From Bacteroides intestinalis (GTDB lineage: Bacteria > Bacteroidota > Bacteroidia > Bacteroidales > Bacteroidaceae), in NCBI RefSeq assembly GCF_902364365.1, contig NZ_CABJDN010000002.1:308131-372130 (forward strand): a stretch of DNA of 64,000 nt, read 5' to 3'. Every line of letters starts with the position of its first letter. Positions within the stretch are counted from its first letter, which is position 1. The position numbers were made by a program, and so were the translations under genes. Shown here piece after piece: positions 15,575 through 63,649 of this stretch. The notes beneath the pieces were generated by a model that did not search any database, was not told where the DNA came from, and saw nothing but the letters and a program-made list of their open reading frames with translations.

Positions 15575-15940
15575 TGCATTCTATACTTAAAGGTAAGCAA
15601 AGATAAGAAAACTTTCGAAATGGACAGGGAAGCCAGTGAAAGGAATATGGGATTTATCACTTAATTATCTATCTTTCGAGCGTCAACAACCCCGGGACGT
15701 AACACCAGCGAATGATTTTGTAACACAGGGAAAAGTCATGTTACATTTAAATGTAACACAGGCTACAATAAAACACCTGCTTCTTCATATTATAGAATAC
15801 CTTTGTCACAAACGAAAAGGAATGTTTAATCACTTAATCTAATTGAATACAAATATGGAAACTTAAAAATGAAATGCACGTCTTCACATCTTTAATAAAG
15901 AAAGAGAATATTATTGTTATCCAACTAAATTAATTTCAGT
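15575..15940. promoter_or_regulatory. Divergent control region between HTCS and SusC operon
   Basis: On the minus strand a -7 box TATCTTTG (15598-15605) lies 24 bp before the HTCS start. On the plus strand a -7 box TACCTTTG (15798-15805) precedes susC by 135 bp; no good -33 box is seen, as expected for an activator-dependent promoter. Upstream of it lie GTAACAC half-sites at 15699, 15720 (21 bp apart) and 15753. There is also a perfect 20-bp palindrome, TGTTACATTT followed by its inverse (15739-15758). These are the best candidates for HTCS binding. Confidence 0.6.
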
Positions 15941-18900
15941 ATGAAATGCACAAATTATTGTTTTAAGCCTCTGGGGCTTCTATTCTTATTATGCCTGATA
16001 CCTCTATGGGCATTTTCACAGAACATCACTGTGAAAGGTGTGGTGAAAGACGCCACAGGAGAATCGGTTATCGGTGCGAGCGTAGTGCAGAAAGGCACCA
16101 GCAACGGTATTATTACCGACATCGACGGTAACTTCACGCTGAATGTTCCATCCAACAGTACCATCGTAATTTCATTTGTGGGCTACAAGACACAAGAAAT
16201 TCCTGTAGCCGGGAAGACACAAATCAATGTTACGATGAAGGAAGATACTGAGATGCTGGACGAAGTCGTGGTAGTAGGTTACGGACAGATGAAACGTTCG
16301 GACCTGACGGGTTCGGTGGTATCGGTAAATGACCAGGCCATCAAGAAGTCGGTTCCGACTTCTATCGACCAGGTATTGCAAGGCCGCGCTGCCGGTGTGC
16401 AGATTCAGGCAAACTCCGGTACACCCGGTGCAAGTTCTGCCATCCGCATCCGTGGTATCAACTCACTGAACGCCACAAACCAACCTATCTTCGTGATTGA
16501 CGGAGTAGTGGTGGACGCCGCCACAGATGACGAGACGAATAACCCGCTGTCCAGCATCAACCCGTCGGACATTGTTTCAATGGACGTATTGAAAGATGCC
16601 TCCGCCACCGCCATCTATGGTGCACGTGCCTCAAACGGTGTTATTATGATCACTACCAAACGCGGACAAGCGGGCGAAGCCACCATTACTTATGATGGTT
16701 ACATCGGCTGGCAGAACATGCCCAAGCACCTGGATATGATGAACCTGCGCGAATATGCTGAGCATCACAATTCCCGTGCCGCAGCGGGTATCGTCACTCA
16801 AAGCAGCGCCTTTGTACGCCCCGATATGCTGGGTGAAGGAACCGACTGGCAGGACGAACTTTTCCAGAATGCCATGATGACCAGCCACAACCTCTCGCTG
16901 ACAGGCGGTAGTGATAAGGCCACTTATGCTATCAGTGCCGGTTATCTGGATCAGGACGGTATAGCTCTGGGCTCAGGCTTCAAACGCCTCTCCCTGCGCG
17001 GAAACCTCGATGCACAGGTAAAGAAATGGCTGAAAGCGGGAATCAACTTCTCACTGGCAGACTCTAAACAAAAGGTGGGTTGCGACAACAACATTATCAT
17101 GAATGCCCTGCAACAGCAACCTTCCGTAGCAGTAACCAACGCCGATGGCGGTTTCGACGGACCGGACGACGTGTGGATGCCGGTGAATCCGGTAGCTTAC
17201 GCAACCATTCGCGATAATTATAACAAGAAAATAAACTTCCGCTTCAATACTTATCTGGAAGCTACACTGATGGACGGACTGTCATTCAAGACGGAACTCT
17301 CTGCCGACTACAACCTGAATAAGTTCTATTACTACGAACCCGACTACAAGTTCGGTGTAATCACCAACGAAACCCGCACCGGACGTTGGACGAAGACGGA
17401 CACCAAATACTGGTCATGGCGCAATATACTTACTTATAATAAAACCTTCGCACGTGTACACAGCATCAACGTCATGCTGGGACAGGAAATGTCGCAGTCA
17501 CATTGGGAAACACAGGTGAGCAATGCAACGGGCTACCTGAGCAACTCAACCAAAGACCCCAGTGCAGGTGACGTGTCCAAATCAAGCGGTACCGGATCAC
17601 AGAGTGATAACTCCATCGCTTCATTCTTCGGACGCGCCTTCTATTCGTATGACGACCGTTATCTGCTTACCGCTACCCTGCGCCGCGACGGTTCTTCTAA
17701 ATTCGCCCGCGGCAACCGGTGGGGCTGGTTCCCATCCGCCGCATTGGGTTGGAAACTTTCCAATGAATCTTTCCTGAAGGACAACGATGTGATCAATAAC
17801 CTGAAACTCCGCTTCGGCTGGGGTGCAACGGGTAACCAGAATGTAGAGAACTGGGCTTATATGGCCATGCTTTCATCCAAAACCACCCCGTGGGGCGTAG
17901 GTGTGTTGACAGGAAACACGCCCAATCCCGAACTGAAATGGGAAACGACCTACTCCACCAACATCGGTTTGGACCTCAGTCTCTTCCAGAACCGCATCGA
18001 GTTCATCGCAGACGTATATTATAAGAAGACCAAAGATCTGCTGCTCCAACTTCCGTTGCCGTCTTACCTCGGTTCGGCAGGTGCCGGTTCGGCCAGCAAT
18101 CCATGGGCAAACGTCGGATCACTCGAAAATAAAGGTATAGAGTTGACCTTGAACACAGTGAACATTGATAAGAAAGGTTTCCAGTGGCGTTCCAACTTCG
18201 TATTCTCACTGAACCGTAACAAAGTGCTGGAACTGGATACGGAAAGCGCTTCTATCGAGAAGACCTACAGTGTAGGCAGCGAGAACAGCATAGTGACACG
18301 TACCGTTGTAGGACAGCCTATCGGACAATTCTGGGGCTACAAAGTGATCGGCCGTTTCGACAAAGCCGAAGACTTTTATTACAAAGATAAAGAAGGCAAC
18401 GTGAAACCCGTCGCTCTGCCTGCCGGTTCTTCCATCGAAGAAGGAAAGACCTGGATCGGTGACTACATCTTTGCCGATCTGAACAATGACGGCGTCATCG
18501 ACAACAACGACTGTACCTTCATCGGAAATCCCGAACCCAAGTTTACTTACGGCATCGGAAATACGTTCTCCTGGAAAGGTTTCGACCTGACCATCTTCCT
18601 CTCCGGCTCTTATGGCAACGACGTACTGAACTACAACCGCCGCTACATAGAGAACCCGCGCGTAAACAGCAACCTGCTGAAGAGTGCAGCCAACTATGCC
18701 GTATTGGAAAGAATAAACCCGGACGGTCCGGATGATTTCCGCAACCTGCGTGTGGCTAATACAAGCACCACTCTGCCGCGCATCTCGGCTTCTACCACGA
18801 ATGCCAACAACCGCGTCAGCGACCTTTACATCGAAGACGGTTCGTACCTGCGCATTCAAAACATCTCATTAGGCTACACACTCCCCAAGAAATGGGTGAA

Positions 18901-19084
18901 CAAGCTGAACCTACAGAATGTGAAAGTATATGCCAACCTGCAAAACGTATACACCTGGACCAACTACTCCGGTTATGACCCCGAAGTGGGCTGTATGTAT
19001 GGCGATGCTCTGATGAACGGTCTGGACTACGGTCGCTATCCTTCACCGCGTATTTATACATTCGGTTTAAACGTTTCTTTCTAA
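15941..19084 (+). CDS. SusC-like TonB-dependent outer membrane transporter (pair 1)
   Basis: A 1047-residue outer membrane protein of standard SusC size. Signal peptide about 1-26; CarboxypepD_reg-like beta-sandwich about 28-112 (VKGVVKDATGESVIGASV, then DIDGNFTL); TonB-box-like DEVVVVGYGQ; plug domain about 120-235 with the usual IRIRGINSLN and LKDASATAIYGARASNGVI; then the 22-strand barrel ending in the aromatic terminus GLNVSF. It should import xylan oligosaccharides driven by TonB. First gene of the operon activated from 15575-15940; the SusD partner starts 8 bp after its stop. Confidence 0.95.
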   Translation: MKCTNYCFKPLGLLFLLCLIPLWAFSQNITVKGVVKDATGESVIGASVVQKGTSNGIITDIDGNFTLNVPSNSTIVISFVGYKTQEIPVAGKTQINVTMKEDTEMLDEVVVVGYGQMKRSDLTGSVVSVNDQAIKKSVPTSIDQVLQGRAAGVQIQANSGTPGASSAIRIRGINSLNATNQPIFVIDGVVVDAATDDETNNPLSSINPSDIVSMDVLKDASATAIYGARASNGVIMITTKRGQAGEATITYDGYIGWQNMPKHLDMMNLREYAEHHNSRAAAGIVTQSSAFVRPDMLGEGTDWQDELFQNAMMTSHNLSLTGGSDKATYAISAGYLDQDGIALGSGFKRLSLRGNLDAQVKKWLKAGINFSLADSKQKVGCDNNIIMNALQQQPSVAVTNADGGFDGPDDVWMPVNPVAYATIRDNYNKKINFRFNTYLEATLMDGLSFKTELSADYNLNKFYYYEPDYKFGVITNETRTGRWTKTDTKYWSWRNILTYNKTFARVHSINVMLGQEMSQSHWETQVSNATGYLSNSTKDPSAGDVSKSSGTGSQSDNSIASFFGRAFYSYDDRYLLTATLRRDGSSKFARGNRWGWFPSAALGWKLSNESFLKDNDVINNLKLRFGWGATGNQNVENWAYMAMLSSKTTPWGVGVLTGNTPNPELKWETTYSTNIGLDLSLFQNRIEFIADVYYKKTKDLLLQLPLPSYLGSAGAGSASNPWANVGSLENKGIELTLNTVNIDKKGFQWRSNFVFSLNRNKVLELDTESASIEKTYSVGSENSIVTRTVVGQPIGQFWGYKVIGRFDKAEDFYYKDKEGNVKPVALPAGSSIEEGKTWIGDYIFADLNNDGVIDNNDCTFIGNPEPKFTYGIGNTFSWKGFDLTIFLSGSYGNDVLNYNRRYIENPRVNSNLLKSAANYAVLERINPDGPDDFRNLRVANTSTTLPRISASTTNANNRVSDLYIEDGSYLRIQNISLGYTLPKKWVNKLNLQNVKVYANLQNVYTWTNYSGYDPEVGCMYGDALMNGLDYGRYPSPRIYTFGLNVSF

Positions 19085-19091
19085 CCTCAAA

Positions 19092-20813
19092 ATGAGAAAA
19101 CAAATGAAAAGCAAATTAATACTTATAATGGCTTTGACCGGTGGAATGTCACTGGCAAGCTGCGAGGACTTTCTGGATCAAGAAAACACTACGAACCTCA
19201 ACCAGGAAACTTTCTTCGACAGCGATGCGGCTATCACAGCTGCAACAGCTCCACTTTACAACTATGTATGGTCCAGCTTCAACGAGAAGGCCTACTACTC
19301 CATGGGCGACGGTCGTGCCAATAACATCACCGCTCAATATTCGGACTATATCTATCCGTATACCAACCTGAACGAAACTTCACTCGCCGCCGGACTCGAC
19401 GATGCCTGGGGAGCTTTCTACTCGGTAGTGGCGCAAGCCAACAATACGATCAATAACATCCGGAATCATGCTTCTGCCAACGTAAGTGAGACAGCCAAGA
19501 CCCAAGGCATAGCCGAAGCACGTTTCATGCGCGGAACAGCCTATTGGTATCTGGCTTCCCTCTGGGGACTGGCCATCATCTACGAGAACACTTCGGACCT
19601 GGTGAACAACTACGTGGTTCCCGCCAACAACCGCACCGACGTGATGGAATTTGCCATCCGCGACCTGGAATATGCGGCTGCATATCTCCCGGACACTCCT
19701 GCACAGACCGGACGGGTTACCAAGTACAGTGCTTTCGGTATGCTCTCACGTGTATACCTCTCCATGGCCGGACTGACCGACAACGGCGAATACAATGGAA
19801 GCAACATAGCTACCGACCCGAACCGGGGCACGCGCAACACGTATTATCTGGATCTGGCCAAGAAAGCAGCCTTGAGAGTTGTGGGTACTTCCAATTATGA
19901 TCTGATGGATAACTATGGCGACCTCTTCACGTATGCAAACAACAATTGCAAAGAAGCGCTCTTCCAGCTGCAATGGCTCTCCGGTTCCAAAGATGTTCTT
20001 CCCTGGGGAAGTATGCAGGCTATCACTACCTTCTTTGGCTGGTCTACCATGGTGACGGACGCCACCAACTGGGGCGGTGCCACTTATTGTTCTTGGGACT
20101 TATGGGACGAATATGATCCGAAAGACGTCATCCGCCGCCACTACTCCGTGGCTTCCTATGGCGAACATTATCCGGATATGAATGTCCGTGGCGGTGGCTA
20201 CACGTATGGTGTGACCGAAAATCGCGGAAGCCAAGGTGCAAACATCAAGAAATATGTGATCGGAACAAATGCCGACAATGGTGTAAGTTATCAACAAAGT
20301 AGTGGTCTGAACACGCACATGCTCAGACTGGCGGAAGTTTATCTGAACCTGGCGGAAGCCATCCTGGGTAATAATGCTTCGACTACGGATCCCACAGCCT
20401 TATTCTATTATAACAAAGTGCGCGCTCGTGCAGGCATGCCGACAAAAGATAGCAATGAAGCCATCACTTACGAAGACCTGCGCTACGAACGCCGCATCGA
20501 ACTGGCTTTTGAAGGGCAATACTGGTACGACCTGATCCGCCGCTCCTACTACAAGCAGCAGGAAGTGGTGAACTACATGAACAACCAGAACCGTAACGCC
20601 AGCTACGACTATAACGAAACCACCGGAAAGTATGAAATCAGTGAAGATTACGTTGCTCCCGGAAAAGGCGTGGCCACGGCTACGGCAAGCAGCCTGACGC
20701 TCCCTGTTTCAGACGTAGACCAAAACAAGAACCACTATCTCAGCGGCACTATTCAAACCGTACCCTATGCTTTCGGCGAGAGAGAAGTGTCCGTAGCAGA
20801 TTTATACAAATAA
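19092..20813 (+). CDS. SusD-like glycan-binding lipoprotein (pair 1)
   Basis: A 573-residue RagB/SusD family lipoprotein. Lipobox LASC with Cys24; the acidic CEDFLDQE after it fits export to the cell surface. The N-terminal TPR-like SusD motifs (GTAYWYLASLWG, later LRLAEVYLNLAEAI and LRYERRIELAFEG) are clear. It caps the SusC barrel and delivers glycan. The start may be at 19092 or four codons later (19104); both give the same mature protein. Confidence 0.95.
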   Translation: MRKQMKSKLILIMALTGGMSLASCEDFLDQENTTNLNQETFFDSDAAITAATAPLYNYVWSSFNEKAYYSMGDGRANNITAQYSDYIYPYTNLNETSLAAGLDDAWGAFYSVVAQANNTINNIRNHASANVSETAKTQGIAEARFMRGTAYWYLASLWGLAIIYENTSDLVNNYVVPANNRTDVMEFAIRDLEYAAAYLPDTPAQTGRVTKYSAFGMLSRVYLSMAGLTDNGEYNGSNIATDPNRGTRNTYYLDLAKKAALRVVGTSNYDLMDNYGDLFTYANNNCKEALFQLQWLSGSKDVLPWGSMQAITTFFGWSTMVTDATNWGGATYCSWDLWDEYDPKDVIRRHYSVASYGEHYPDMNVRGGGYTYGVTENRGSQGANIKKYVIGTNADNGVSYQQSSGLNTHMLRLAEVYLNLAEAILGNNASTTDPTALFYYNKVRARAGMPTKDSNEAITYEDLRYERRIELAFEGQYWYDLIRRSYYKQQEVVNYMNNQNRNASYDYNETTGKYEISEDYVAPGKGVATATASSLTLPVSDVDQNKNHYLSGTIQTVPYAFGEREVSVADLYK

Positions 20814-20831
20814 CTTTAATACCAAACAGAT

Positions 20832-22211
20832 ATGAAAAACTTGAAATATATATGGCTCTTATGTCTTGCGCTGACCGCTGTCTGCTTCGTATCCTGCGAC
20901 GACGATGATAATCAGGACAGTAAACCGATCGTAATCTCAAAGATTTATCTTGAAGACTACAAGTCGGCAGTGCCCGACCGTGAAGTCCAGTTCGCCCGCC
21001 TGGGACAGCTGATCCGCATCGAGGGCAACGGTTTCCTGGGGATGAAGCGGGTTTATATCAACGGCTATGAAACCTTCTTCAACGTGGCATACGTGGCCGA
21101 TAACTCCATGCTGATTACCGTGGACAGCAAAACTCCTGTTGTAAATGCACCGGACGATGTACGCAATAAGATACGTCTGGTAAAATCGGGTGCGGAACTA
21201 GAGTACACTTTTGAAATCCGCTCAGCAGCCCCCAGTATCTCACGCATCAGCAACACGCTGCCGCAAGCACAGGAAAAAGTGACTGTATATGGCACCGGAC
21301 TGCACGAAACAAGCAAAGTGACCTTGCCGGGCGGAACTGAAATCACTGCCGGCATAGAAAGTGATGAAGACGGTGAATGGTATTCATTCACAATGCCTTC
21401 GGGCATCACAGCCAGTGGTTCCATCACTTCGGAAGGTGCTAACGGTATTGCCATCACTCCCGCTTACTTCAATGACAGCAATTGCATGATACTCAACTTC
21501 GATGGCAAAGGCGCACAAGGTTCGTGGAACTGGAGCGAGACAGGTTCTATGATCAGTGCAGATGATCTTGTAAATGATCCGGATGATTCTGGCCGCGGCA
21601 AGTGCCTGCAGATTGTTCCGGACCGCCTACTGACCGGAAATGGAGTAGCCGCCGGTAAACCGCGTGTTACCGAATGTTGGACGGTGGGTGCCGGTGAAGA
21701 CGAAACGGTGGATTGGTCTTACATGTACTCCCACATCCCGGCCACTACCGCTCTGACGGATGTCGCCTTCCAATTTGACATCAACGTACCCGATGCGTGG
21801 ATCGGAACCGGACATATTCAGATCTGCCTATTCAATAATTTCAATTATGGAGGAATAGGTTCTGATGACGACGGACAACGCACTGCATTCTATGTGCCTT
21901 ACATCCAGGATGGCGCAGTAGTTCCTTTTACTACGACCGGCTGGCAGACCGTTACCATTCCTTTCAGCGAATTCGGCTACTACAAGAAGCAATTGGAAGA
22001 GGGCACCACAACTCCTACTTTCCAAACAGTTGTCGATGACCGTCTGGCTGCCACATACCAGAACTTTGGTGTAGGTTTCGTGAATACCGATTTCACGTAT
22101 GGGGGAGTAAGCATTACTTCCACACTCTTCAAAACGAAGATCTATCTGGACAACTTGCGCGTAGTTCCTTGCGCAAGCGTCACGGTTTCGGACTTCGACG
22201 ATGAGGAATAA
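20832..22211 (+). CDS. Surface glycan-binding lipoprotein with IPT/TIG domains
   Basis: A 459-residue lipoprotein (lipobox VSC, Cys22) with a strongly acidic tail after the Cys (CDDDDNQD), a surface-export mark in Bacteroides. Two IPT/TIG-like Ig folds are suggested at about 35-125 and 130-220 (for example RIEGNGFLGMKRVYINGYE and VTVYGTGLHETSKVTLPG). They are followed by a C-terminal beta-sandwich (about 225-450) that probably binds xylan. Position after SusC/D and before the GH10 is that of the surface glycan-binding protein in xylan and xyloglucan PULs. No catalytic motif is visible. Confidence 0.82.
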   Translation: MKNLKYIWLLCLALTAVCFVSCDDDDNQDSKPIVISKIYLEDYKSAVPDREVQFARLGQLIRIEGNGFLGMKRVYINGYETFFNVAYVADNSMLITVDSKTPVVNAPDDVRNKIRLVKSGAELEYTFEIRSAAPSISRISNTLPQAQEKVTVYGTGLHETSKVTLPGGTEITAGIESDEDGEWYSFTMPSGITASGSITSEGANGIAITPAYFNDSNCMILNFDGKGAQGSWNWSETGSMISADDLVNDPDDSGRGKCLQIVPDRLLTGNGVAAGKPRVTECWTVGAGEDETVDWSYMYSHIPATTALTDVAFQFDINVPDAWIGTGHIQICLFNNFNYGGIGSDDDGQRTAFYVPYIQDGAVVPFTTTGWQTVTIPFSEFGYYKKQLEEGTTTPTFQTVVDDRLAATYQNFGVGFVNTDFTYGGVSITSTLFKTKIYLDNLRVVPCASVTVSDFDDEE

Positions 22212-22253
22212 GGATAGATCACATTGTGTAACATGAATAAAAGAACATAGATT

Positions 22254-24584
22254 ATGAAACTAAATAAAATCATTCTTCCAGTAATGGCTTGCGCACTGAC
22301 ATTGAGCGGCTGTTACGATGAAAAAATGGAATGGGGCAAACCCGACGGGCACGGTGACGTCAACATCTCCGATATTCCCCTCGCATTGAAAGAGAAGCTG
22401 GCAAACTATGATTATATCAAAGCGTATGCCAAACAGTATGCGCCGCATATGACCATCGGTCTCGGTTTAGGTGCCGACCAATACATCAGCGATCCGCAAT
22501 ACAAGCAGGTGGCGGATGAGAACTTCCAGTTGTTCACCACCGGCAATGCCATGAAGCACTCGTCCGTAGTGAAGAACGACGGTACACTGGACTTCACAAC
22601 GATTGATGCCTTCCTGAATCTTGTACCGTCTGACATCCAGATATACGGACACAACTTCCTGTGGCACACACAGCAGAAACAGACTTATCTGAAATCACTG
22701 ATTGCTCCGGAAGTTATCATAGACGTTGATGATGATGATGTTTGCGAGAATATCATACCAAACAGTGACTTTGAAAATGGTACCATTGCAGGCTGGGGTG
22801 CTTGGGGGAATAATAACCCGACAATAAGTATCACTTCTCCGGGATACGACGGAAGCCAGTATGCAATGCTTATCACGAATCCTGCAGATGGTGGCACCGG
22901 CAACGCTTGGAAAGCTCAAACGGCCTACACTTTTGATACTCCGATTGAAGCCGGTACTACTTATGTGGTACAATTCTGGGCTAAGAGCAGTACGGGAGCA
23001 GGAAAACTTCAATTCCAGTATCAGAATGGTACGACTTACGGCAGCCAGGGTGGCTACAATACTTTTGATGTCGGAACTTCCTGGATATTGTGCCAGTACG
23101 AGTTCACTACAACCTATGAAGATGTGAACCGTATTCTTATCAACAGTGGTGAAATAGCCGGAGAATATACAATTGACAATTTTAAATTCGGCAAGAAGAT
23201 AGAAGAGAAAATGATCAATATCATAGACGACGGAAAATTCGAAGACGGAACTCTCGGCTCATGGATCGGTTGGGGAAACAATTCGACGCGTTCTATCTCT
23301 AACAAGGGAGAAGGCTATAACAGCGATTACTGCATGGTGATGGTCAATCCTTCTGACGGAGACTCCTGGAGTGCCCAGACTGCTCATTCATTCCCGGAAA
23401 CATTAACCGTGGGAAAGACCTATATGTATTCAGTTATGGTGAAAGCATCCGTTATCAATCCGGATTTCACCTTACAGGTGCAAGATGCCAGTGGTGGCAA
23501 TGGTGAAGGATACGTGAGTGCTGCAACAGCCGTCGATCAATGGATACCGATTGAAGGTGAATTTGTTTGCAAGAATGAAGGAATGGCACGTCTCTGTATT
23601 AACTACGGAAAAGCAGCTGGAACTTACTACATCGATAACTTCAAATTCGGTGAAAAGAAAGCTGCAGCAGAAACTAAAACTTTGCGTGCTGCAACCCGTG
23701 CCGGTGGCATCAGCTACAAGTTGAAGACTCCCGAAGAAAAGAAAGCCGCCCTGCTGGGTGCCATGGAATCATGGATTAAAGGCATGTTGGAGCATACGGG
23801 CGATCGCATCAAGGAATGGGATGTAATCAACGAACCGATTGCAGACGACGGACAATGGCGCGGTATCAGCGGTAACTTTATGAGCAACGGCGATGAAGCT
23901 CCTGACATAGCACCTGTGGAAGACGAAGAAAGCGGTCTGAACCTGAACTGGGCAACCGATCACTTCTATTGGGGATACTACATCGGTAAAGAATATGCCG
24001 TGAAAGCATTCGAGTATGCACGCAAATATGCAGCTGCCGACGCCAAACTTTATGTAAATGACTACAACCTCGAATCAAGCCCCAACAAACTGGCTGCTCT
24101 GATAGGATTTGTACAGTACATTGAAGATAATGGTCAGAAGGTCGACGGTATCGGTACTCAGATGCACGTATCATCCAGTATAACGAAAGATCAGGTAGAC
24201 GCTATGTTCAAGACTTTGGCTGCAACAGGCAAACTGATCCGGGTAACGGAATTGGATGTACAGGTAGGCACCACTACTCCATCGGCTGAACAATTGGCCA
24301 CACAGGCGGAAGTATATCAAATGATCTTCGACTCTTACCGGGTTAACGTACCACAGGCTCAGCAATCAGGTATCACCATCTGGACGCTGACCGACAGCAA
24401 AAAAGAACATGAATACTGGTTGTCGGACGATGCACCGAACCTTTTCGATGCAAACTATGGTCGCAAACATGCCTATAAAGGTGTATGCGATGGTATTGCC
24501 GGAAAAGACATTAGTGAAGATTTCAGCGGTGACGACTGGAAGAATGCGTATGAAACAGAAGGAGAAGGAACTCCAGCTGAATAA
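22254..24584 (+). CDS. GH10 endo-xylanase split by two tandem CBM4_9-like inserts
   Basis: A 776-residue lipoprotein (lipobox LSGC, Cys20). The GH10 barrel starts at about 35-155 (GNAMKHSSV, YGHNFLWHTQQ), is interrupted by two CBMs (about 166-310 and 320-475, each opening with a DFENG- or KFEDG-type motif), and resumes at about 490-770. Acid/base E527 (WDVINEP) and nucleophile E666 (VTELDVQ) are present. This split GH10 architecture is known from xylanases of B. ovatus and B. intestinalis. It should cut xylan at the cell surface. A strong hairpin follows at 24600-24629, so it probably ends the SusC operon. Confidence 0.93.
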   Translation: MKLNKIILPVMACALTLSGCYDEKMEWGKPDGHGDVNISDIPLALKEKLANYDYIKAYAKQYAPHMTIGLGLGADQYISDPQYKQVADENFQLFTTGNAMKHSSVVKNDGTLDFTTIDAFLNLVPSDIQIYGHNFLWHTQQKQTYLKSLIAPEVIIDVDDDDVCENIIPNSDFENGTIAGWGAWGNNNPTISITSPGYDGSQYAMLITNPADGGTGNAWKAQTAYTFDTPIEAGTTYVVQFWAKSSTGAGKLQFQYQNGTTYGSQGGYNTFDVGTSWILCQYEFTTTYEDVNRILINSGEIAGEYTIDNFKFGKKIEEKMINIIDDGKFEDGTLGSWIGWGNNSTRSISNKGEGYNSDYCMVMVNPSDGDSWSAQTAHSFPETLTVGKTYMYSVMVKASVINPDFTLQVQDASGGNGEGYVSAATAVDQWIPIEGEFVCKNEGMARLCINYGKAAGTYYIDNFKFGEKKAAAETKTLRAATRAGGISYKLKTPEEKKAALLGAMESWIKGMLEHTGDRIKEWDVINEPIADDGQWRGISGNFMSNGDEAPDIAPVEDEESGLNLNWATDHFYWGYYIGKEYAVKAFEYARKYAAADAKLYVNDYNLESSPNKLAALIGFVQYIEDNGQKVDGIGTQMHVSSSITKDQVDAMFKTLAATGKLIRVTELDVQVGTTTPSAEQLATQAEVYQMIFDSYRVNVPQAQQSGITIWTLTDSKKEHEYWLSDDAPNLFDANYGRKHAYKGVCDGIAGKDISEDFSGDDWKNAYETEGEGTPAE

Positions 24585-24629: not shown

Positions 24630-24715
24630 CCATTTAACAAATCATTCAGCAAATCCGGCAAAAACATCCGTTTTACCCCCTGAAACAGGGAAATGTACGA
24701 TAAACAAAAAATTAT

Positions 24716-24801
24716 GTAACATCATTGAGGAATGATGTAACCGAAATGAAGTTTTCTGCAACACTGCGAAAAGCTTTCTAAATTATAGCTCACTATCTTT
24801 G
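24716..24801 (+). promoter_or_regulatory. Activator-type promoter with three GTAAC half-sites at 21-bp spacing
   Basis: Half-sites GTAAC (24716), GTAAC (24737) and GCAACAC (24758) are each exactly 21 bp apart, on one face of the DNA. A -7 box TATCTTTG lies at 24794-24801 with no clear -33 box. With a start near 24808, the half-sites fall at about -92, -71 and -50. The same spacing and distances occur at the minus-strand promoters of the GH5 and xusA genes. Confidence 0.65.
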
Positions 24802-53185: not shown

Positions 53186-53213
53186 ATTCTTTTTGCATTT
53201 TATAATTATGTGA

Positions 53214-55031: not shown

Positions 55032-55040
55032 AATTTTAGA

Positions 55041-57905
55041 TTAGAATACAGCTTTCACACCAATATTATAGAATCTGCTTTGCGGAGCACTACCCACATT
55101 CATCTCCATGTGTTTACGTTCTTTCGAGATTGTCAGCAGATTTGCACCGCTTACGTAAGCAGATAATTCATTGATGAAAGTGTTACGCAAAATACGTTTC
55201 GGCAGATCATAAGTAATCTGTACTTTCGCCAGATCGAAGCGATCAGTCTTGTACAACCAATAATCCGAAGCACGGAAGTTATTACTTGCACTTCTAGCAG
55301 ATAAACGGGGATAAGTAGCAGTAGCTGCTGTTTCAGGAGTCCAACGATTGCGGACTATGGCTGAATATTTATCATCGCCATCCACCCAATAATATGAACT
55401 GTTTTTCAATCCATAAGCGCCGAAGTTACCAGTACCCAACACAAAGAGAGTCAAGTTCTTCCATTTGGTAGTAAAATTGATACCGAGTGTAAAGGGCGCA
55501 CCATACCAACCACCTTTACCCAAGAAGACTTCATCTTTGTCATCAATTACATTATCTCCATTCTGATCTACATACTTGATGTCACCAGGTTGAACCGTAC
55601 TACCCAGTTTCTGTTCAGGACTACTCTCAATTTCTTCCTTATTCTGGAATAATCCGGCACTCTGAAGTCCCCAGATACCATCAACAGCTTTTCCCTCACG
55701 ATAACGATAGGCATCATCATAGATTTCATCACGCTTAGTAACCTTAGTATCGTAATACGTACCTGCCACACCCAAAGACAAGTCTACATCTCCAAAACGC
55801 TTGTTAGCATTTATATTGAAATCAAAGCCTACACGCTTGTTATTGTTATAGTTCATCACAGCCATAAAAGATGCTGCCGGATATCCTGTATTCAAATGTG
55901 ACGGATAAAAAGTAGGTTGATTGATCAAATATCCCTCCATAGAGTTGATAAAGAATGAAGCATCGGCCGTAATCAGTCTATTCCAAAGCGAAGTTTTCAG
56001 GTTTACAGAGAACTCTTTGCGCTTGATGAACGAAAGATCGTCGTTCTGACCTCTGGTAGAGATAGTATATTTACCGGCCGGACCATCATACCATGCATAG
56101 CCATCGTTTTGAGTCCATACTGATTCATAGAGATAAAACTCATTATCACCCATTACCAAATCAATGTCTTGATTGAGGATACTACCCGATACGCTCAACA
56201 ATAAATCATCTACCACAGGAGAATCTTTCAGAAAGTTTTCACCGCTTAAACGCCAGCCCAACGTCACCGAAGGAGAGAGAGCCTGACGATGTCCTTTAGC
56301 CAGCTTAGCCGAATGGATCAATGCAGCACCAAAATCTGCATAATAGCGTTGCTGATAGTTATAACCCGCCTGTAATGCCAAATTAGCATTGCTGATACGA
56401 TGATATTGTGCAGAAACCGTCTGCTGGTAACCATTGGCTATAAGCATAGCTGATACATTATGATACTTATTGAAAGTATTCTGATAATTGAACTGTCCAG
56501 AAAATGCAATCGTTTGCTTATCCGCACTTCCACCCACATTCTGAGTGCCCGGCTTTTCATCATTTCCCTCCTTGCTGAGCGCTACTATAACATCTTTACC
56601 GCCATAGTTAGCCCAAGTAGGAACAAATACTGCATATTTATTATCAAAAGAAGTGGAGTAAGAAGTGGCATAATCTACAGCAAACATAGCATTGAATGAG
56701 AGTCCTTTCAGAACTTGATTAAGATCGACATTCACACCAGCATCAAACTGGAACTGACGACTCGTCCACTTACTGCTTCCGGCAGCATAACTGTCAGCAA
56801 AAGCATTAGTAGAATTAGCCTGCGTACCAGCCAAGAAATACTTTCCATCAATAATATTGGAAGTAGTGCTCAGCAGTTCCCAAGCAGCTGTAGCATTGGG
56901 ATCAATCATATCCAATGGAATAAGCGGGGCCGCATATTCCGGGAAATTCGGACGTGCAGTCGATGCTATGTTCCAATAATCACCTTTCGCCGTTTTTGAA
57001 TTGTAAAATGTAGCATTGGCATTAATGTAGGCATTAATAAAGCTATTGATATTTACGTCTACATTACCACGTACGTTAAAACGGTCCGTCATATTATTCT
57101 TGGCTTCACCAAAATCAAGAAAATCTCCATTACGATAATAACTCACATTACTATAAAAACGCGCACGCTTACCGCCACCAGTAATCTCAGCAGTTACTTC
57201 CGAACGATTATATGCCTTTTTTACATAATCAGAAGAATAGTAATTTATATTTGTATAACGATATGGATTCAGTCCTGAACCATGATTGTAAATATCTTCG
57301 GCCGTATAACGGAGTTTCACAGTAGGATCATCATTCAAGAGGGCTTCATTATAAAGTGTCATGTACTCAGCCGAACCTAAGTATTCAGGAAAAGCCTTCG
57401 CTACATGAAATCCGGTATTAGCTCTGACACTAACGTTCAACCCCTCTACATTACCGCGTTTTGTAGTGATTACCACCGCACCTTTAGCAGCTTTACTACC
57501 ATAAAGAACCACAGCCTGGGCACCTTTCAAAAATGAAATCTGTGCAATTTCAGACGGCATAACATTGTTGGCATCACGAGGCACACCATCTACCAAAACC
57601 AAAAAACCGGCATTGTCACCGTCCATTCCCCACAATGAGTTACCATTCCAACCGCCTACATAGCCCTGCATATTATCCAAGCTGTAAGTATTATAATTCT
57701 TCTTCGTAAGTTCTTCCACATTGACTACAGAAACACCACCCAAAAGGTCTTTTTGAGCTACCTTACGAAAAGCGACCTGTACCATCGGGTCTTTTTCGTT
57801 TGCCAATGAATCGGTCTCATTCCAGTCTGTGGCCTGCGCACTGACAAACATCGGAGAAACAGCCAGCATAGCACAAAGAATGAATTTTGTTTGTATATAT
57901 TTCAT
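55041..57905 (-). CDS. xusC: SusC-like transporter lacking the N-terminal beta-sandwich, XusC
   Basis: A 954-residue outer membrane transporter, about 100 residues shorter than the other two SusC proteins. After the signal (about 1-23) there is only a short acidic stretch and then the plug (VQVAFRKVAQKDLLGGVSVV), so the CarboxypepD_reg-like domain is missing and the usual EVVVVGYG segment is replaced. Plug motifs LVLVDGVPRD and FLKGAQAVVLYGSKAAKGAVVI and the C-terminal GVKAVF are intact. It partners xusD. It should import xylan oligosaccharides, perhaps coupling to TonB differently from pair 1. Confidence 0.92.
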   Translation of the reverse strand: MKYIQTKFILCAMLAVSPMFVSAQATDWNETDSLANEKDPMVQVAFRKVAQKDLLGGVSVVNVEELTKKNYNTYSLDNMQGYVGGWNGNSLWGMDGDNAGFLVLVDGVPRDANNVMPSEIAQISFLKGAQAVVLYGSKAAKGAVVITTKRGNVEGLNVSVRANTGFHVAKAFPEYLGSAEYMTLYNEALLNDDPTVKLRYTAEDIYNHGSGLNPYRYTNINYYSSDYVKKAYNRSEVTAEITGGGKRARFYSNVSYYRNGDFLDFGEAKNNMTDRFNVRGNVDVNINSFINAYINANATFYNSKTAKGDYWNIASTARPNFPEYAAPLIPLDMIDPNATAAWELLSTTSNIIDGKYFLAGTQANSTNAFADSYAAGSSKWTSRQFQFDAGVNVDLNQVLKGLSFNAMFAVDYATSYSTSFDNKYAVFVPTWANYGGKDVIVALSKEGNDEKPGTQNVGGSADKQTIAFSGQFNYQNTFNKYHNVSAMLIANGYQQTVSAQYHRISNANLALQAGYNYQQRYYADFGAALIHSAKLAKGHRQALSPSVTLGWRLSGENFLKDSPVVDDLLLSVSGSILNQDIDLVMGDNEFYLYESVWTQNDGYAWYDGPAGKYTISTRGQNDDLSFIKRKEFSVNLKTSLWNRLITADASFFINSMEGYLINQPTFYPSHLNTGYPAASFMAVMNYNNNKRVGFDFNINANKRFGDVDLSLGVAGTYYDTKVTKRDEIYDDAYRYREGKAVDGIWGLQSAGLFQNKEEIESSPEQKLGSTVQPGDIKYVDQNGDNVIDDKDEVFLGKGGWYGAPFTLGINFTTKWKNLTLFVLGTGNFGAYGLKNSSYYWVDGDDKYSAIVRNRWTPETAATATYPRLSARSASNNFRASDYWLYKTDRFDLAKVQITYDLPKRILRNTFINELSAYVSGANLLTISKERKHMEMNVGSAPQSRFYNIGVKAVF

Positions 57906-57949
57906 TGTTTATTCATTTATTATTAAACATACTTTTTAGTCCTCCACGA

Positions 57950-59899
57950 TTACCAGCCGGGATTCTGTCCGAACTCAGGATAAAGATAAACATCATCATC
58001 AGGTAAGGGGAACCAATAATGCTTTGTACCGTATATGCGTTTCACAATCAGTTCATGACGGTAGTTAGCCACTTCAGCTTCCGCAGGGTCATTATTTTTA
58101 TAGAAATCTGCACTCTCTACCCGATCGAATTCTACAGAATATTTCTCGGTATAAGGTGACTCGGTCAGCAACAGCCAACGTTGCAGGTCATTGAAGCGGA
58201 AACCTTCCATAGAAAGTTCAACAGCACGTTCACGACGAATCTCGTCCATAAATTTCTTGCTGTCTGCAATATAGGATGAATGTACTTCCTCAGCACCACA
58301 ACGGGCACGGATCTTATTGATTGCGTCGAGCGAAGTAAGCGTACAGTTATCAGACTTGGCAGATGAACCGCCAAAAGCAGCACAACTCTCGGCATACATC
58401 AGGTAAATGTCTGCCAAACGCATATAAGGCAAATAAGTATGCAAGTTACTACCCCAGTCATATTCCTTATCACCTTCATTACAAGTATGGGGAACAAACT
58501 TCTGGAAAAAATAACCGGTACGGCTGCCAAGATCTGCCGAACGCATATCTGAACCTGTAGAAAGATCACAATAAGCATAAGGTTTTTGTGCATCGGACAA
58601 TTTATCCTCTGCCAATACAAAATGGAAACCGTCAAATACGATATCGTGATAGAAGCGCGGATCTCTGTTCTTAAAAGGATATCTTTCATCAAATCCTGAG
58701 TTGGGATCATCAACAGGAAGACCATTTGCCATACCATACATTTTCACAAGGTTGGCAGTAGGCAAGTGTATGATTTTATCATGGGCGACAAGTCCTGCCA
58801 CTTTCGGCCCCCACAATTTCGTCATATTCCAGTTACTTCCATTAAAATCCGCAGAAGGGCCACGGAAGATAGCCTCTACCGAACCGGGCATTAACCAATT
58901 CTGACGACGGGTATAGAAAATATCGGAATAACAAGTTTGGGCACCTTTTGCCTTCTCATGATCATAAACATTACTATAATTAAACTCTGCAAGCGCATAT
59001 TGGGTTTGCCCACTCTCTACCAAGGCCAGCAATTCGCCAAATGCCTGTGCAGCTTTCTTACAATAAGCTTCATCATAGTTGTAAGTCTGAGTACCTCCCA
59101 ACTGTGCACCGTTCTTCATCAAAGGGCTTCCTGCCCACAGATAATTCTTACCCAAATAACCCAACGCCATGATTTTATTGATTCGCAGTTGGTTCTTACC
59201 CTCTGTAGCCTTACCAGCACTGGTCTTGTCCCAGTCTACCGGCAACAAGTCTGCAGCACGACGGAAATCCTCTCCTGCTTTATCGGCACATTCTTGATAA
59301 CTCAAACGTGGTAATCTCAATTCTTGCGTAGCATCGAACACCTGATCAATATAAGGCAATCCTCCCCAATAGGTCATCAGTTCAAAATGCCACCACGCAC
59401 GGAAGAAATAAAGCTGACCTGCAATCAAGTCTTTTTCTTCCTGCGTACCCACCAGTTTGTCCAAATTGGCAAGACCTACATTAGCCTTGCGAATGCAATA
59501 CCAAGAATGCGGCCACAAAGAGTGTTGAAACTTATCGGTAGAAGCTGGGTTGCTGGGATTTCTATACAACCAACATTGACCATTACTTTGCCAAGCACGG
59601 AAATTACCTAAGTCAGCCTGATGCGTCATGTGAGCATCACCCATGGAGTTGAAGAGTTCGTCATCACCCCAGTTCCACGAAGTACAATAGTTACATTTCT
59701 CCTTATCGGGAATACAATTATATATTTCTTCTATGAATCCCTGGAAATTACGGAAATTCTTAAATGCATCTTCTTCGGATACAGTCGATTCAGGACTTTT
59801 ATCCAAATAGTCTTCGCAAGACGTCATGCCGAGCCCCACTGCAAGAGCCAAAAGGCCTGAACATAAAAGAGTCTTATATGTATATTTCATCTTGTTCAT
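57950..59899 (-). CDS. xusB: SusD-like lipoprotein, XusB
   Basis: A 649-residue RagB/SusD lipoprotein (lipobox TSC, Cys28; CEDYLDKSPES is the classic SusD opening). Motifs FFRAWWHFELMTYWGGLP, MRLADIYLMYAESCA and RRERAVELSMEGFRFNDLQRW are visible. It follows xusA by only 2 bp, so translation is coupled. An ATG three codons in (59890) is possible. It should present xylan oligosaccharides to XusA. Confidence 0.94.
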   Translation of the reverse strand: MNKMKYTYKTLLCSGLLALAVGLGMTSCEDYLDKSPESTVSEEDAFKNFRNFQGFIEEIYNCIPDKEKCNYCTSWNWGDDELFNSMGDAHMTHQADLGNFRAWQSNGQCWLYRNPSNPASTDKFQHSLWPHSWYCIRKANVGLANLDKLVGTQEEKDLIAGQLYFFRAWWHFELMTYWGGLPYIDQVFDATQELRLPRLSYQECADKAGEDFRRAADLLPVDWDKTSAGKATEGKNQLRINKIMALGYLGKNYLWAGSPLMKNGAQLGGTQTYNYDEAYCKKAAQAFGELLALVESGQTQYALAEFNYSNVYDHEKAKGAQTCYSDIFYTRRQNWLMPGSVEAIFRGPSADFNGSNWNMTKLWGPKVAGLVAHDKIIHLPTANLVKMYGMANGLPVDDPNSGFDERYPFKNRDPRFYHDIVFDGFHFVLAEDKLSDAQKPYAYCDLSTGSDMRSADLGSRTGYFFQKFVPHTCNEGDKEYDWGSNLHTYLPYMRLADIYLMYAESCAAFGGSSAKSDNCTLTSLDAINKIRARCGAEEVHSSYIADSKKFMDEIRRERAVELSMEGFRFNDLQRWLLLTESPYTEKYSVEFDRVESADFYKNNDPAEAEVANYRHELIVKRIYGTKHYWFPLPDDDVYLYPEFGQNPGW

Positions 59900-59901
59900 T
59901 A

Positions 59902-62900
59902 TTATAATGTAAATTTAACACCTAAGTTATAACGTTTCACTGTGGGATAAGCTCCCAGATAACCAGCTCCGGAGAGGTTAGCTTCACGGTCATCCGGCAT
60001 GCGAGTCCATAACCATAGATTATTACCATTGACATAAATTTTCAGGTTACTTAATCCCATTCTCTTGATCCAGCCTTTATTCCAAGTATAAGCTATTTCA
60101 ACGTTCTTTAAACGAATATAAGAACCGTCATAAAGAGATTGGGTTCCGCCGTTATAGCTCGGCGTAGAATTCCAGCGAGGTACTACCACATCGGCATTAG
60201 GAGTATTTTTTGACCACCATGTGCCAGTGTCAAACACAGTGTTCAGTTTGCTGCCAAAACTAGTAAGCCCCACATCACGGGTTACATTGTTCACACCATA
60301 AAATTGTGCAAATGCACTGAATCCTTTCCACTCAAAACCGATGGTAGCATTAAATGTATTTTCGGGCTGACTGGTGTAGCCATAAGGAGCCTGATCTTTG
60401 TTATCCACCACACCGTCGCCATTAAAATCGACAATGTAATAGTCGCCCACCAGTTTTTGAGAATCATTAGCATCATGAGCAGGGCTACCATACAATTGGT
60501 CATAGTTTTGAATGTATCCCGCATCAATATAAGAAGTATATTGACCTACCCCGAAGCCAGCTGCTTTCTGATAGGCAGGACGCATAGCTTGGTCATCTTT
60601 CACCAACACCTTATTCTTAGCATGTGTCATACTAAAGTTACCCCAAACACGCCAGTCATTACCAAAGGTCTTATTTACACGTAATTCCAATTCATATCCA
60701 TTCGTACGGATTTTACCTTTGTTAACAGAAGGAGGAGTTCCTCCGAAATAAGAAGGAATGGAACGGTCGCCACCATAGACAAAGATATTGGAACGTTCAT
60801 CACGGAAGAATTCCAAACTACCAGCCAGCACTCCTTCAAAAAGCGAATAGTCAACACCAATATTCAATTTTTTCACAACCTCCCATTGTATATCCTGATT
60901 ACCAATAGCAGACTCACGATACCAGGTATAGATACTTTCTGTATGGTTCAGATCCATAGTAGTGTGGCCACCATAGGCCCACTGGTTCATGTACAACCAC
61001 CGACGGCTTGAATCAAACGGATCAGGTCCTAACTGGTCAGAACCAATTTCACCATAAGAAGCACGAACTTTCAACATGTCAATGATCTTCTTTTCACGGA
61101 AAAACTTCATGAAAGGTTCTTCACTGACCATCCAGCCAATAGCACCTGAATTAAAAAATGCAAAACGATTCTCTGGGCTGAACTTTTCAGAACCATTGTA
61201 AGCGCCATTGTATTCTATGAAATAACGGTCGGCATAGTTATAAGTAACACGGAAAGCCCAGTCTTCACGATAGGTTGGCATCACACTGCCTCGTGCATTT
61301 TCCTGACGACTAAATAATCCCATAGCCGTGACATCATGCTTACCAAAACTACGCATCCAGTTCAATTGCGCCTGATAATAAAGGTTACGAACCGTCTGGC
61401 TATTATCCACGGCACCGGGAGAAGTACTCCAATTGACTCCTTGTGTCCAGTCAAAACCATTATTTGTGTCATACGATTGTTCATATCTCACCTGACCGGT
61501 ATCCGGATCAATCCACTTGCGCTGCGCACTATTAAACAAGTCATTGATACCACGATTGTTTTCAACAAATATATTGTCCCAAGAAACAGTGGCACGGGCA
61601 GAAAGTCCCTTAGTTATAAACTTCAAATCTTGCTCCAGTGTAAAGTCGGTATTGATACGGGTGGTTGTGAGTTGCATCGTACCACCTAAAGAAATATTTT
61701 CTGCAGAGTTCGTGGTATTTGTAACAAGTGGATACATACCCCAGCTACCATCGGAATACTGCGGCAGGAACACGTCCGGTGCAATATTGTATGCACCCGA
61801 CCATTGCTGCCCAATCTGCCATTCCGAATTACCCGTATTGCTCCATGGAGCCTTACGAATAGCATTGGAGCCTGCAAGGTTCATCTTCAGTACGGTAGTC
61901 TTCGTTATATTGAAGTCCAGATTACTGCGCACATTGATACGATCGTATCCATAACCAGAGTTGTAATCACGACCATTGTCATAAATTCTAAAGAGGTCAC
62001 CCTCATGTACATAATCGGCCGAAGCAAAATACTTCACAAACTTTGTACCACCACTAATATTAAGATTGGCATTGTAAGACATTGTGTTATCTTTAAACAG
62101 AGCCTTCTGCCAGTCTACATTAGGATAACGTTCTCTCTGCTCAACAGTAGTCTGATTACGATAATTGTTGATGAACGATTGGGAACGGATGTATTCCCAT
62201 GAATCAGGCCTCAGAGCCAATTCATGCTCAATGGCTGTATTACGAAACAACAAAGCGTCGTAAGAATCGTACTTATTGGGAAGTTTAGAAGGAGCCTTCA
62301 GAGTGGCATTGAAACCCACATCGATTTTCGCACTGCCCTCAGCACCACGTTTCGTAGTTACAAGAATTACACCATTGGCACCCTTCACACCGTAAACAGC
62401 AGTTGCGGATGCATCTTTCAAAACTGAAATAGATTGTACAGAACTGATATCCACTGAACTCATGGGACGTTCAATACCATCAACCAACACAAGCGGATCT
62501 TCATTATTATTCCAAGAACTTGCACCACGAATCGTTATTTTAGGTTCTTCTGCACCTGGCATACCTGTACCTGTGGTAGTAACCACACCTGGTAAGTTAC
62601 CCGTCAGTGCCGCACCAATATCACTGATACCAGCTGCCCGTTCCAGTACTTTACCGGTAGTTTGTGTGATAGCGCCTACTACACTGGCCTTCTTCTGCTG
62701 ACCATATCCTACCACAACAACCTCTTCCAGTTGCTGTGAGTCATCTTCTAAAGTGACCTTCAAGAGTTTTTGGCCTGCAATTCTAACTTCCTGCGATTTC
62801 ATTCCTATAAATGAAACTACAAGAATTACTTTGTCATCAGGAACAGTCAATGTGAAATTTCCATCTATATCTGATATTGTACCTATTGAAGTATTGTTTT

Positions 62901-63063
62901 TTACAACGACGGAAGCCCCAATTACCGTTTCGCCATTTCCATCGACGACTGTTCCTTTTACCGTTACTCCATTTTGTGCTAAAGTCGGTAAACAACTCAA
63001 TAGCAACAAAAGAATCAAGTAAGGGATCTTTTGAATTTGTTTTGTTACATTTTTCATTACCAT
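59902..63063 (-). CDS. xusA: SusC-like TonB-dependent transporter, XusA
   Basis: A 1053-residue outer membrane transporter. Signal about 1-29; CarboxypepD_reg-like domain about 32-117 (VKGTVVDGNGETVIGASV, DIDGNFTL); EEVVVVGYGQQKK; plug about 125-245 (ITIRGASSWN, LKDASATAVYGVKGANGVI); barrel ending GVKFTL. It is the first gene of the xus operon, whose order A-B-C-D-E-xyn10 matches the core xylan cluster of xylanolytic Bacteroidetes. A second ATG two codons in (63057) is possible. The promoter region with phased half-sites is at 63292-63398. Confidence 0.95.
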   Translation of the reverse strand: MVMKNVTKQIQKIPYLILLLLLSCLPTLAQNGVTVKGTVVDGNGETVIGASVVVKNNTSIGTISDIDGNFTLTVPDDKVILVVSFIGMKSQEVRIAGQKLLKVTLEDDSQQLEEVVVVGYGQQKKASVVGAITQTTGKVLERAAGISDIGAALTGNLPGVVTTTGTGMPGAEEPKITIRGASSWNNNEDPLVLVDGIERPMSSVDISSVQSISVLKDASATAVYGVKGANGVILVTTKRGAEGSAKIDVGFNATLKAPSKLPNKYDSYDALLFRNTAIEHELALRPDSWEYIRSQSFINNYRNQTTVEQRERYPNVDWQKALFKDNTMSYNANLNISGGTKFVKYFASADYVHEGDLFRIYDNGRDYNSGYGYDRINVRSNLDFNITKTTVLKMNLAGSNAIRKAPWSNTGNSEWQIGQQWSGAYNIAPDVFLPQYSDGSWGMYPLVTNTTNSAENISLGGTMQLTTTRINTDFTLEQDLKFITKGLSARATVSWDNIFVENNRGINDLFNSAQRKWIDPDTGQVRYEQSYDTNNGFDWTQGVNWSTSPGAVDNSQTVRNLYYQAQLNWMRSFGKHDVTAMGLFSRQENARGSVMPTYREDWAFRVTYNYADRYFIEYNGAYNGSEKFSPENRFAFFNSGAIGWMVSEEPFMKFFREKKIIDMLKVRASYGEIGSDQLGPDPFDSSRRWLYMNQWAYGGHTTMDLNHTESIYTWYRESAIGNQDIQWEVVKKLNIGVDYSLFEGVLAGSLEFFRDERSNIFVYGGDRSIPSYFGGTPPSVNKGKIRTNGYELELRVNKTFGNDWRVWGNFSMTHAKNKVLVKDDQAMRPAYQKAAGFGVGQYTSYIDAGYIQNYDQLYGSPAHDANDSQKLVGDYYIVDFNGDGVVDNKDQAPYGYTSQPENTFNATIGFEWKGFSAFAQFYGVNNVTRDVGLTSFGSKLNTVFDTGTWWSKNTPNADVVVPRWNSTPSYNGGTQSLYDGSYIRLKNVEIAYTWNKGWIKRMGLSNLKIYVNGNNLWLWTRMPDDREANLSGAGYLGAYPTVKRYNLGVKFTL

Positions 63064-63649
63064 TAGTTTAAGATATTAATAACTACATTCTCTTCATTAC
63101 ATTAGCTATTAGAAATAGCTTTAACTGTCATCATACATGCATTTCATAATTACATCGGTCTTTTAAGATTAATAATTCCAGCGATTCGCATTTGCAATAT
63201 TTTACATAGATTTGCATTCTTGGTCATATAGAAGTTAGAGACATTTCACAAACAACTACCTCAACTCTCAAAACATCTCTCTTCTTGGCAGCAAATGTAT
63301 CCAACATAAACGGAACAATTCGCACATTCATGCTACACGTTTTTTTGACAGTATTACATCTTTCTTTTTGATGTTACATTTTTCTTTGAAAGCATTACAT
63401 AATAGAATATAAAACATTTATTATAAGACAGTTACCCCCAAAACAAAATCTTATAAGCCCGGAATATATTTTACTAAAAAGCGACCTTTCAGAAGACCTT
63501 GAAACAGGTAAAAAGGAGCTCAAAAAATGAAAGAAAAAATGGTTTGTAACGTACCGAAAAAGATATGTAACCCACTTGTTAGAGGCAAAAAAACTCTCTT
63601 GTCCTATTCATTTAGCAAAAGGGCAATTAACACATTTAAAGAAATGGAT
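63064..63649. other. Long leader and control region of the xus operon
   Basis: No gene is seen. It holds a predicted leader of about 220 nt before xusA, the promoter and half-site array (63292-63398), and a second pair of GTAAC sites in the opposite orientation at 63546 and 63567 (21 bp apart). Confidence 0.6.
63292..63398 (-). promoter_or_regulatory. xusA promoter with four phased half-sites
   Basis: Read on the minus strand: -7 box TACATTTG (63292-63299), then GTAGC (63332-63336), GTAAT (63353-63357), GTAAC (63373-63377) and GTAAT (63394-63398). Spacings are 21, 20 and 21 bp. With a start near 63285 they fall at about -51, -72, -92 and -113, the same frame as the promoters at 24716-24801 and 49032-49096. 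Confidence 0.6.

Follow-up and report, generated by a model that had tools for sequence, protein, structure and literature searches.

A recurrent register of TGTWAY half-site arrays and predicted -7 boxes at a xylan-type locus of Bacteroides intestinalis

The xylan-type locus and its arrays

The DNA analyzed here (the window) is a 64,000-nucleotide stretch of the Bacteroides intestinalis contig NZ_CABJDN010000002.1 (positions 308,131 to 372,130; GC content 44%). It contains a xylan-type locus in which four gene clusters are each preceded by an array of hexamers resembling TGTWAY, spaced 20-21 bp apart and placed at set distances from a predicted -7 promoter box. According to Pfam matches, the gene order is a hybrid two-component system regulator (HTCS-1), susC1-susD1-surface glycan-binding protein (SGBP)-GH10, GH35-SASA-MFS-GH10/GH43-GH43-oxidoreductase-GH67, a C11 peptidase and a second regulator (HTCS-2), after which the minus strand carries GH95, an esterase, GH5, GH10, a 135-aa open reading frame (ORF), DUF5627 and two pairs of susC and susD genes. 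Of these, the outer susC is the gene called xusA in an earlier note made from the sequence alone (hereafter, the original prediction). The features are listed below, with the distance of each hexamer in brackets, counted between the first bases of hexamer and -7 box; operon limits were predicted from gene spacing only.

11471..15574, minus strand: HTCS-1 (Pfam), with Reg_prop/Y_Y_Y sensor, HisKA, HATPase, receiver and HTH_18 domains
15698..15772, plus strand: susC1 array (register scan), CGTAAC 15698 (100), TGTAAC 15719 (79) and TGTTAC 15739 (59) in register, TGTAAC 15752 (46) out of phase
15798..15805, plus strand: predicted -7 box of susC1 (from sequence), TACCTTTG
15941..24584, plus strand: predicted operon 1, susC1, susD1, SGBP, GH10-CBM4
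24715..24777, plus strand: GH35 array (register scan), TGTAAC 24715 (79), TGTAAC 24736 (58), TGCAAC 24757 (37), three 21-bp units
24794..24801, plus strand: predicted -7 box of the GH35 operon (from sequence), TATCTTTG
24843..36844, plus strand: predicted operon 2, GH35, SASA esterase, MFS, GH10/GH43, GH43, oxidoreductase, GH67
38388..42497, plus strand: HTCS-2 (Pfam), domain order as in HTCS-1, candidate reader of the arrays
42590..48928, minus strand: predicted operon 3, GH5, esterase, SASA/GH95
49032..49039, minus strand: predicted -7 box of the GH5 operon (from sequence), TACATTTG
49056..49097, minus strand: GH5 array (register scan), TGTAAC 49097 (58), TGTAAC 49076 (37), two 21-bp units
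49441..63063, minus strand: predicted operon 4, xusA (susC), susD, susC, susD, DUF5627, 135-aa ORF, GH10-CBM4
63292..63299, minus strand: predicted -7 box of xusA (from sequence), TACATTTG, the same letters as the GH5 box
63317..63399, minus strand: xusA array (register scan), TGTAAT 63399 (100), TGTAAC 63378 (79), TGTAAT 63358 (59), TGTAGC 63337 (38), spacing 21, 20 and 21 bp
63545..63571, plus strand: second TGTAAC pair (from sequence), 21 bp apart, in opposite orientation and upstream of the xusA array

A register scan of the window for at least two in-register half-sites returned four places, ahead of susC1, GH35, GH5 and xusA, and no array at the own starts of the two HTCS genes. At these four heads the half-sites start 37-38, 58-59, 79 and 100 bp before a predicted TAnnTTTG -7 box, which was itself part of the search. 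By convention, transcription starts some 7 bp after the -7 box; on that assumption the three nearer distances correspond to about -50, -71 and -92. Not every position is filled: susC1 has no word-like hexamer at 37 (GGCTAC stands there) and GH5 has no unit at 79 (GTTTAG stands there). If gene spacing reflects operons, the four arrays head 21 of the 24 genes counted between HTCS-1 and xusA inclusive; left over are both HTCS genes and the C11 peptidase. For GH35 we chose the start at 24843; the ORF list has 24807.

The original prediction had described GTAAC half-sites every 20-21 bp at -50/-71/-92, linking operons of both xylan clusters on different strands, with a variant array ahead of the susC of pair 1. 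The half-site coordinates, spacing and register are borne out by the sequence; one code does head operons of both clusters on both strands, and susC1 does have a variant array, with three in-register half-sites besides the out-of-phase TGTAAC. The GTAAC half-sites are present, but strict GTAAC is too narrow a word, and TGTWAY with degenerate proximal forms fits better. The three promoters that it singled out are alike in spacing and register, but that of GH5 has only two units.

Spacing, register and recurrence in other genomes

GTAAC alone is common in the window, with 115 copies on the two strands. Pairs 20-21 bp apart number five, against a mean of 0.17 and a maximum of two in 300 block shuffles, and a pair followed by a box occurs three times in the window and never in the shuffles. 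Because the pattern counted here had been derived from the very sites in question, it is the other genomes that provide independent tests. Across three whole genomes (G001, G013 and G022), 27 of the 89 TGTAAC pairs with spacings of 8 to 38 bp fall at 20-21 bp (21 bp in 22 cases); the other spacings average about 2.1 pairs each. The strict pair with a box in register gave 22 matches in 11 of 61 genomes (none in the reversed control) and 97 matches among 158 genomes of the genus, 48 of which have at least one (one match in the reversed control); orthologous promoters recur among the matches, which are thus not independent events. When the gap to the box was varied, gaps of 1-30 yielded 28 matches (control, 19) and gaps of 33-62 yielded 147 (control, 11), of which 106 have a total length of 86-88, that is, one unit further out. 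Given the low off-register counts and the peak one unit out, the distances between pair and box are quantised, over a background of about one match per gap value.

A register scan of 839 kb, part of it in regions chosen because of the pattern itself, identified 43 arrays, compared with one on the reversed sequence. Removal of two double matches left 41 aligned promoters, in which, picked as they were by the array scan, 86 of 92 TGTWAC words lie in register. The GH35, xusA, CE15 and esterase promoters have arrays that recur in several genomes. The operator architecture is real and recurrent; its kind is known, and its new features can be measured.

Setting aside three near-duplicates leaves 38 promoters, again picked by the array scan. 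In these, the conserved hexamer (box A) is prominent at 37, 58 and 79 and less so at 100, and A-rich columns appear at 45-43, 63-62 and 87-86. The proximal boxes are the most degenerate, with forms such as TGTAGC, TGCAAC and TGATAC. TGTTAC was considered as an inverted half-site and this was set aside; because it is followed in several promoters by the same ATCA as TGTAAC, it was treated as TGTWAC. The Bacteroides promoter consensus pairs the TAnnTTTG -7 box with a TTTG -33 element 19-21 bp before it. No such standard element was seen: at each position from 19 to 30 bp before the box, TTTG occurs in no more than one of the 38 promoters.

The genome nearest to the window, G001, has 21% of sampled 31-mers in common with it and carries the same locus, reversed (identity of 98% for xusA, 98% for GH35, 99% for HTCS-1 and 84% for HTCS-2). 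The letters of the GH35 array are identical there, the susC1 array recurs, and the xusA array is a conserved block in both G001 and G036. HTCS-2 (38388-42497), at 84%, stands out from most of its neighbours, which are 94-99% identical. The susC1 array includes a perfect 20-bp palindrome, TGTTACATTTAAATGTAACA (15739-15758), that is kept in G001 although susC1 itself is only 82% identical over its best match. In G001 a four-unit array with the tail TACATTTGAAAC precedes the esterase. The window (46734-46951 and 49032-49097) has a two-unit array with an almost identical tail ahead of GH5, and its gap between GH5 and the esterase is about 500 bp shorter than in G001; the promoter seems to have moved, or to have been lost and regained.

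The second TGTAAC pair upstream of xusA points away from that gene, about 250-270 bp before its predicted -7 box. The window, G001 and G036 align over this block, and in G135 one of the two sites is matched. The pair lies 193 bp (window) or 204 bp (G001 and G036) from the xusA array; it might act in DNA looping, although so few distances do not establish phasing. In G001 no divergent gene adjoins xusA. Elsewhere, G001 carries a further susC/susD-type gene set (G001:C61 782427-800786) at the place of the C11 peptidase, and the window has a run of about 14 G near its end (63976-63990).

One HTCS clade and the genes behind the arrays

Both HTCSs of the window belong to one clade. In regions chosen by HTCS identity only, some of them cut by contig ends, an array lies within 6 kb of 21 of the 31 clade HTCSs tested, all at least 44% identical to HTCS-2 (25 arrays; two in the reversed control), compared with 2 of 20 non-clade HTCSs of 30-38% identity, both at 36-37% (four arrays; control, none). 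Fisher's exact test gives P = 5e-5, with kinship ignored. The 20 non-clade HTCSs are part of a candidate list that scored at most 10 candidates per genome, and the comparison leaves out two partial clade matches (G011:C286 and G005:C169) and a non-clade HTCS beside a clade HTCS (G022:C1:4794256). Among 80 matches listed for named loci, the closest of them 54% identical, arrays occur in 3 of the 11 whose identity is 38% or more (Parabacteroides sp. PM6-13, Saccharicrinis aurantiacus and Mariniphaga sp.) and in none of the 69 below. The link to HTCS regulators that the original prediction had drawn is upheld in the form of an association with one clade.

HTCS-1 and HTCS-2 share 59% identity in their DNA-binding domains. 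The first recognition helix of these domains, SRVHxHRKLKELTN, differs by one residue and is kept in the clade, with exceptions; the second differs more. Sequence relatives of the HTCS-2 DNA-binding domain include the MarA, SoxS and RamA chains and the solved HTCS fragment 12aw, and by analogy with AraC/MarA structures the first helix would read box A and the second a box B described below. On sequence comparison, the array motif follows the likeness of the DNA-binding domain between clade and non-clade HTCSs. A lag test (14-32 bp) on 35 promoters close to HTCSs outside the clade placed 11 of its 19 counts at 20-22 bp, some from low-complexity repeats, which is no more than suggestive of other HTCS clades using other words in the same frame.

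The next gene was examined for 46 of the 99 distinct strict matches, namely 22 from the 61-genome scan and 24 new loci (L238-L261) from the 158-genome scan. In 37 cases it is of a type found in polysaccharide utilization loci (PULs): SusC, GH2, GH3, GH8, GH10, GH35, GH43, SASA and other esterases, CE15 glucuronoyl esterase, MFS, UxuA and one HTH_18 regulator. Some of the 37 were placed by BLAST to window proteins, four (L245, L246, L249 and L252) only by a like N-terminus, and the distal esterase of G001 through its relative L260. Three next genes encode a 692-aa secreted protein family with no Pfam or NCBIfam match, found in three genomes (L149:9957-12032, L240 and L250, the latter two placed by N-terminus); the L149 protein is weakly GH43-like, with an arabinofuranosidase/xylosidase as its PDB relative (E 4e-29). 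Three others have no family placement (L239, L257 and L261), and three look unrelated: a fimbrillin-like frame (G001), a dicarboxylate symporter (G054) and an aspartyl protease (L242).

Many of these genes fall in xylan enzyme families, and some are unlinked to the xylan locus. In the strict scan, CE15-type arrays were found in G001, G036, G084, G092, G157 and G178 (that of G135 is one base shorter) and esterase-type arrays in the same six genomes and G135; their sameness was judged from promoter letters, and the gene itself was checked in three cases for CE15 (G001, G036 and L247 of G084) and in two for the esterase (G036 and L260 of G135). On a single contig of G084, the CE15 array lies at 0.89 Mb, the esterase array at 1.63 Mb, a xusA-like gene (58% identical) at 3.27 Mb and a GH35-type array at 3.31 Mb. 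The multi-operon regulon within one locus that the original prediction envisaged matches the four predicted operon heads, but it is too narrow, as arrays of related genomes also precede the unlinked CE15 glucuronoyl esterase and another esterase. Most next genes are PUL-type and three are unrelated; of the PUL-type ones, SusC and MFS indicate a PUL, not xylan specifically. In G020, an array stands directly 5' of uxuA (mannonate dehydratase; L095:3-716, minus strand), which links the code to glucuronate breakdown. In G001, a regulator with Reg_prop, Y_Y_Y and HTH_18 domains and neither kinase nor receiver (L133:8998-12162) adjoins the xylan locus and has a four-unit array ahead of it.

Activation by an HTCS clade and its alternatives

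The direct-repeat type of HTCS operator is already known. A 2013 study predicted such operators as direct repeats with an average distance of 21 bp, bound by a dimer whose monomers lie along a single DNA face, separated by two helix turns; it also described motif likeness that tracks the likeness of DNA-binding domains, paralogues that may share a motif (HTCS_Rgu-1) and a distant gene that may belong to the regulon (HTCS_Hep) (Ravcheev et al., PMC3878776). The present arrays agree with those operators in the 20-21 bp direct repeat, in PUL genes near an HTCS gene and in recurrence before orthologous genes. They differ, as far as that text goes, in that two conserved sites are given there, whereas three of the four window promoters have three or four in-register half-sites, and in their fixed distance to a -7 box that lacks a -33 element. 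Sites of SusR-like regulators in the same text are direct repeats too, but with 67 or 77 bp between centres. The parts of that text covered here name no xylan HTCS, "xylan" occurring in them only inside "xylanase". In Bacteroides xylanisolvens, mutation of one HTCS abolishes expression of two xylan clusters, PUL 43 and rPUL 70, directly or indirectly (Despres et al. 2016, PMC4855328); the likeness to the present locus is that one HTCS is needed for two xylan clusters, and the part of that report covered here gives mutant data and no operator sequence. Elsewhere, ChIP-seq is described as placing HTCSs on DNA near their PULs (PMC3404733), and the legend of a supplementary figure (PMC5061871) states that it marks predicted HTCS sites and -7 boxes. 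A literature search that covered neither supplements nor most subscription papers found no three- or four-unit array, fixed -7 register, missing -33 element or clade-wide half-site.

In our view the arrays very probably serve as activator sites for membrane-bound, sugar-sensing HTCSs that belong to a single clade. In Escherichia coli, AraC activators of the MarA/SoxS/RamA type use a two-helix-turn-helix (HTH) domain to read a box followed, about 12-13 bp further on, by an A-rich one, adjoining the promoter; sites there are single, in contrast to the tandem in-series units and Bacteroides-type promoter seen here. Each 21-bp unit would be the site of one AraC-type DNA-binding domain and would combine the conserved box A (TGTWAY) with a weaker box B, rich in A, some 13 bp later. 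Two adjacent units could fit one HTCS dimer, so that an array of three or four units might have room for as many as two dimers along one DNA face; their binding may be cooperative, as the original prediction proposed. The proximal unit, starting 37-38 bp before the -7 box, would cover the place of a -33 element; as no such element is seen at that position, transcription should need the activator.

Several observations weigh against this reading. In G001, G013 and G022 the total of TGTAAC pairs is not raised (89, compared with 180 for the reversed pattern), nor is TGTAAC with a box and no second half-site in excess (147, compared with 177 reversed), from which it follows that the signal lies in spacing and register. 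For 10 of the 31 clade HTCSs, no array lies within 6 kb. Among 28 relatives of xusA (30 loci minus two partial matches, L234 and L237; further relatives are listed without loci), 11 are preceded by an array at a distance of up to 1.5 kb, with a leader below 250 bp in seven and of 510-1099 bp in four, and 17 are not. Nine of the 17 have a same-strand array 1.9-12.7 kb upstream (G173, G080, G069, G064 and G005 in the strict scan; G182, G075, G175 and G004 in the scan of gaps 33-62), which may head a longer operon, and for eight no upstream array was found in either scan. The xusA relative of G013 has no array, even though an HTCS-2 orthologue (67%) is present; the pair found in that genome precedes the HTCS gene and has a one-mismatch box. 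Finally, a 2021 paper on another arabinoxylan PUL, in which the DNA sequence bound by the HTCS is "yet to be determined", draws that HTCS as a repressor (PMC7815789, as far as its text was covered).

Under that scheme a sugar-free HTCS would sit on its site and block the promoter until sensing releases it, and the overlap of the proximal unit with the -33 position is where a repressor could also sit. Nevertheless, we regard repression as improbable here: distances fixed in unit steps over many promoters with no -33 element are what contact with RNA polymerase would lead one to expect, the B. xylanisolvens mutant loses expression, and phosphorylation is reported to raise the binding of two B. 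thetaiotaomicron HTCS fragments (PMC11253607, in the part covered). It is still less credible that another regulator owns the sites, such as the Crp-like BT4338 (Cur) or a one-component HTH_18 protein. The one-component protein of G001 is a candidate in that it is itself headed by an array, but its recognition helix differs and the arrays follow the HTCS clade. The BT4338 palindrome, TATGTTnTAnAACATA, matches none of the four arrays at up to three mismatches; the window contains seven matches to it (5.1 expected), one of them perfect, at 2848-2863 upstream of the ORF at 3109. The idea that a common pentamer has clustered by chance, suggested by the abundance of GTAAC, can practically be dismissed in view of the shuffles, the reversed and off-register controls, the register peaks and the families of the next genes.

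A further question concerns which HTCS acts where. The two regulators could run insulated regulons, HTCS-1 reading the susC1 array alone and HTCS-2 those of xusA, GH35 and GH5, with box A common by descent and specificity given by the second HTH and box B. The 59% identity of the DNA-binding domains and their second helices, which differ more than the nearly identical first ones, are compatible with this, as is the susC1 array, which adjoins HTCS-1 and lacks a unit at 37. An attempt to assign promoters to HTCS-1 or HTCS-2 by half-site flanks was rejected, however, having given the right sign in only 7 of 10 and 7 of 10 cases (leave-one-out), and it did not put the window's susC1 with the HTCS-1 group; paralogous HTCSs with one motif also have a precedent in HTCS_Rgu-1 (PMC3878776, main text). 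Insulation is a plausible arrangement, although we lean against it.

Returning to activation by the HTCS clade, a fuller version can be put forward tentatively, and we hold it to be rather doubtful as a whole. In it, dimers would load in register along one DNA face of the stepped array, the weak proximal unit would replace the -33 element and be filled last, and the number and quality of units would set a sharp, graded response, while one half-site, read by the first HTH that they have in common, would let paralogous xylan sensors co-drive a regulon scattered over megabases.

The interest of these arrays lies in direct testability, not in a new system. They offer a precise candidate site, with its promoter register, for a clade of HTCS regulators, and they favour activation over repression. 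Their fixed placement is a simple, testable rule, for example for reporter promoters in laboratory strains of gut Bacteroides. The arrays also predict unlinked genes, among them the CE15 glucuronoyl esterase, another esterase and, in one genome, uxuA, that may join the xylan response.

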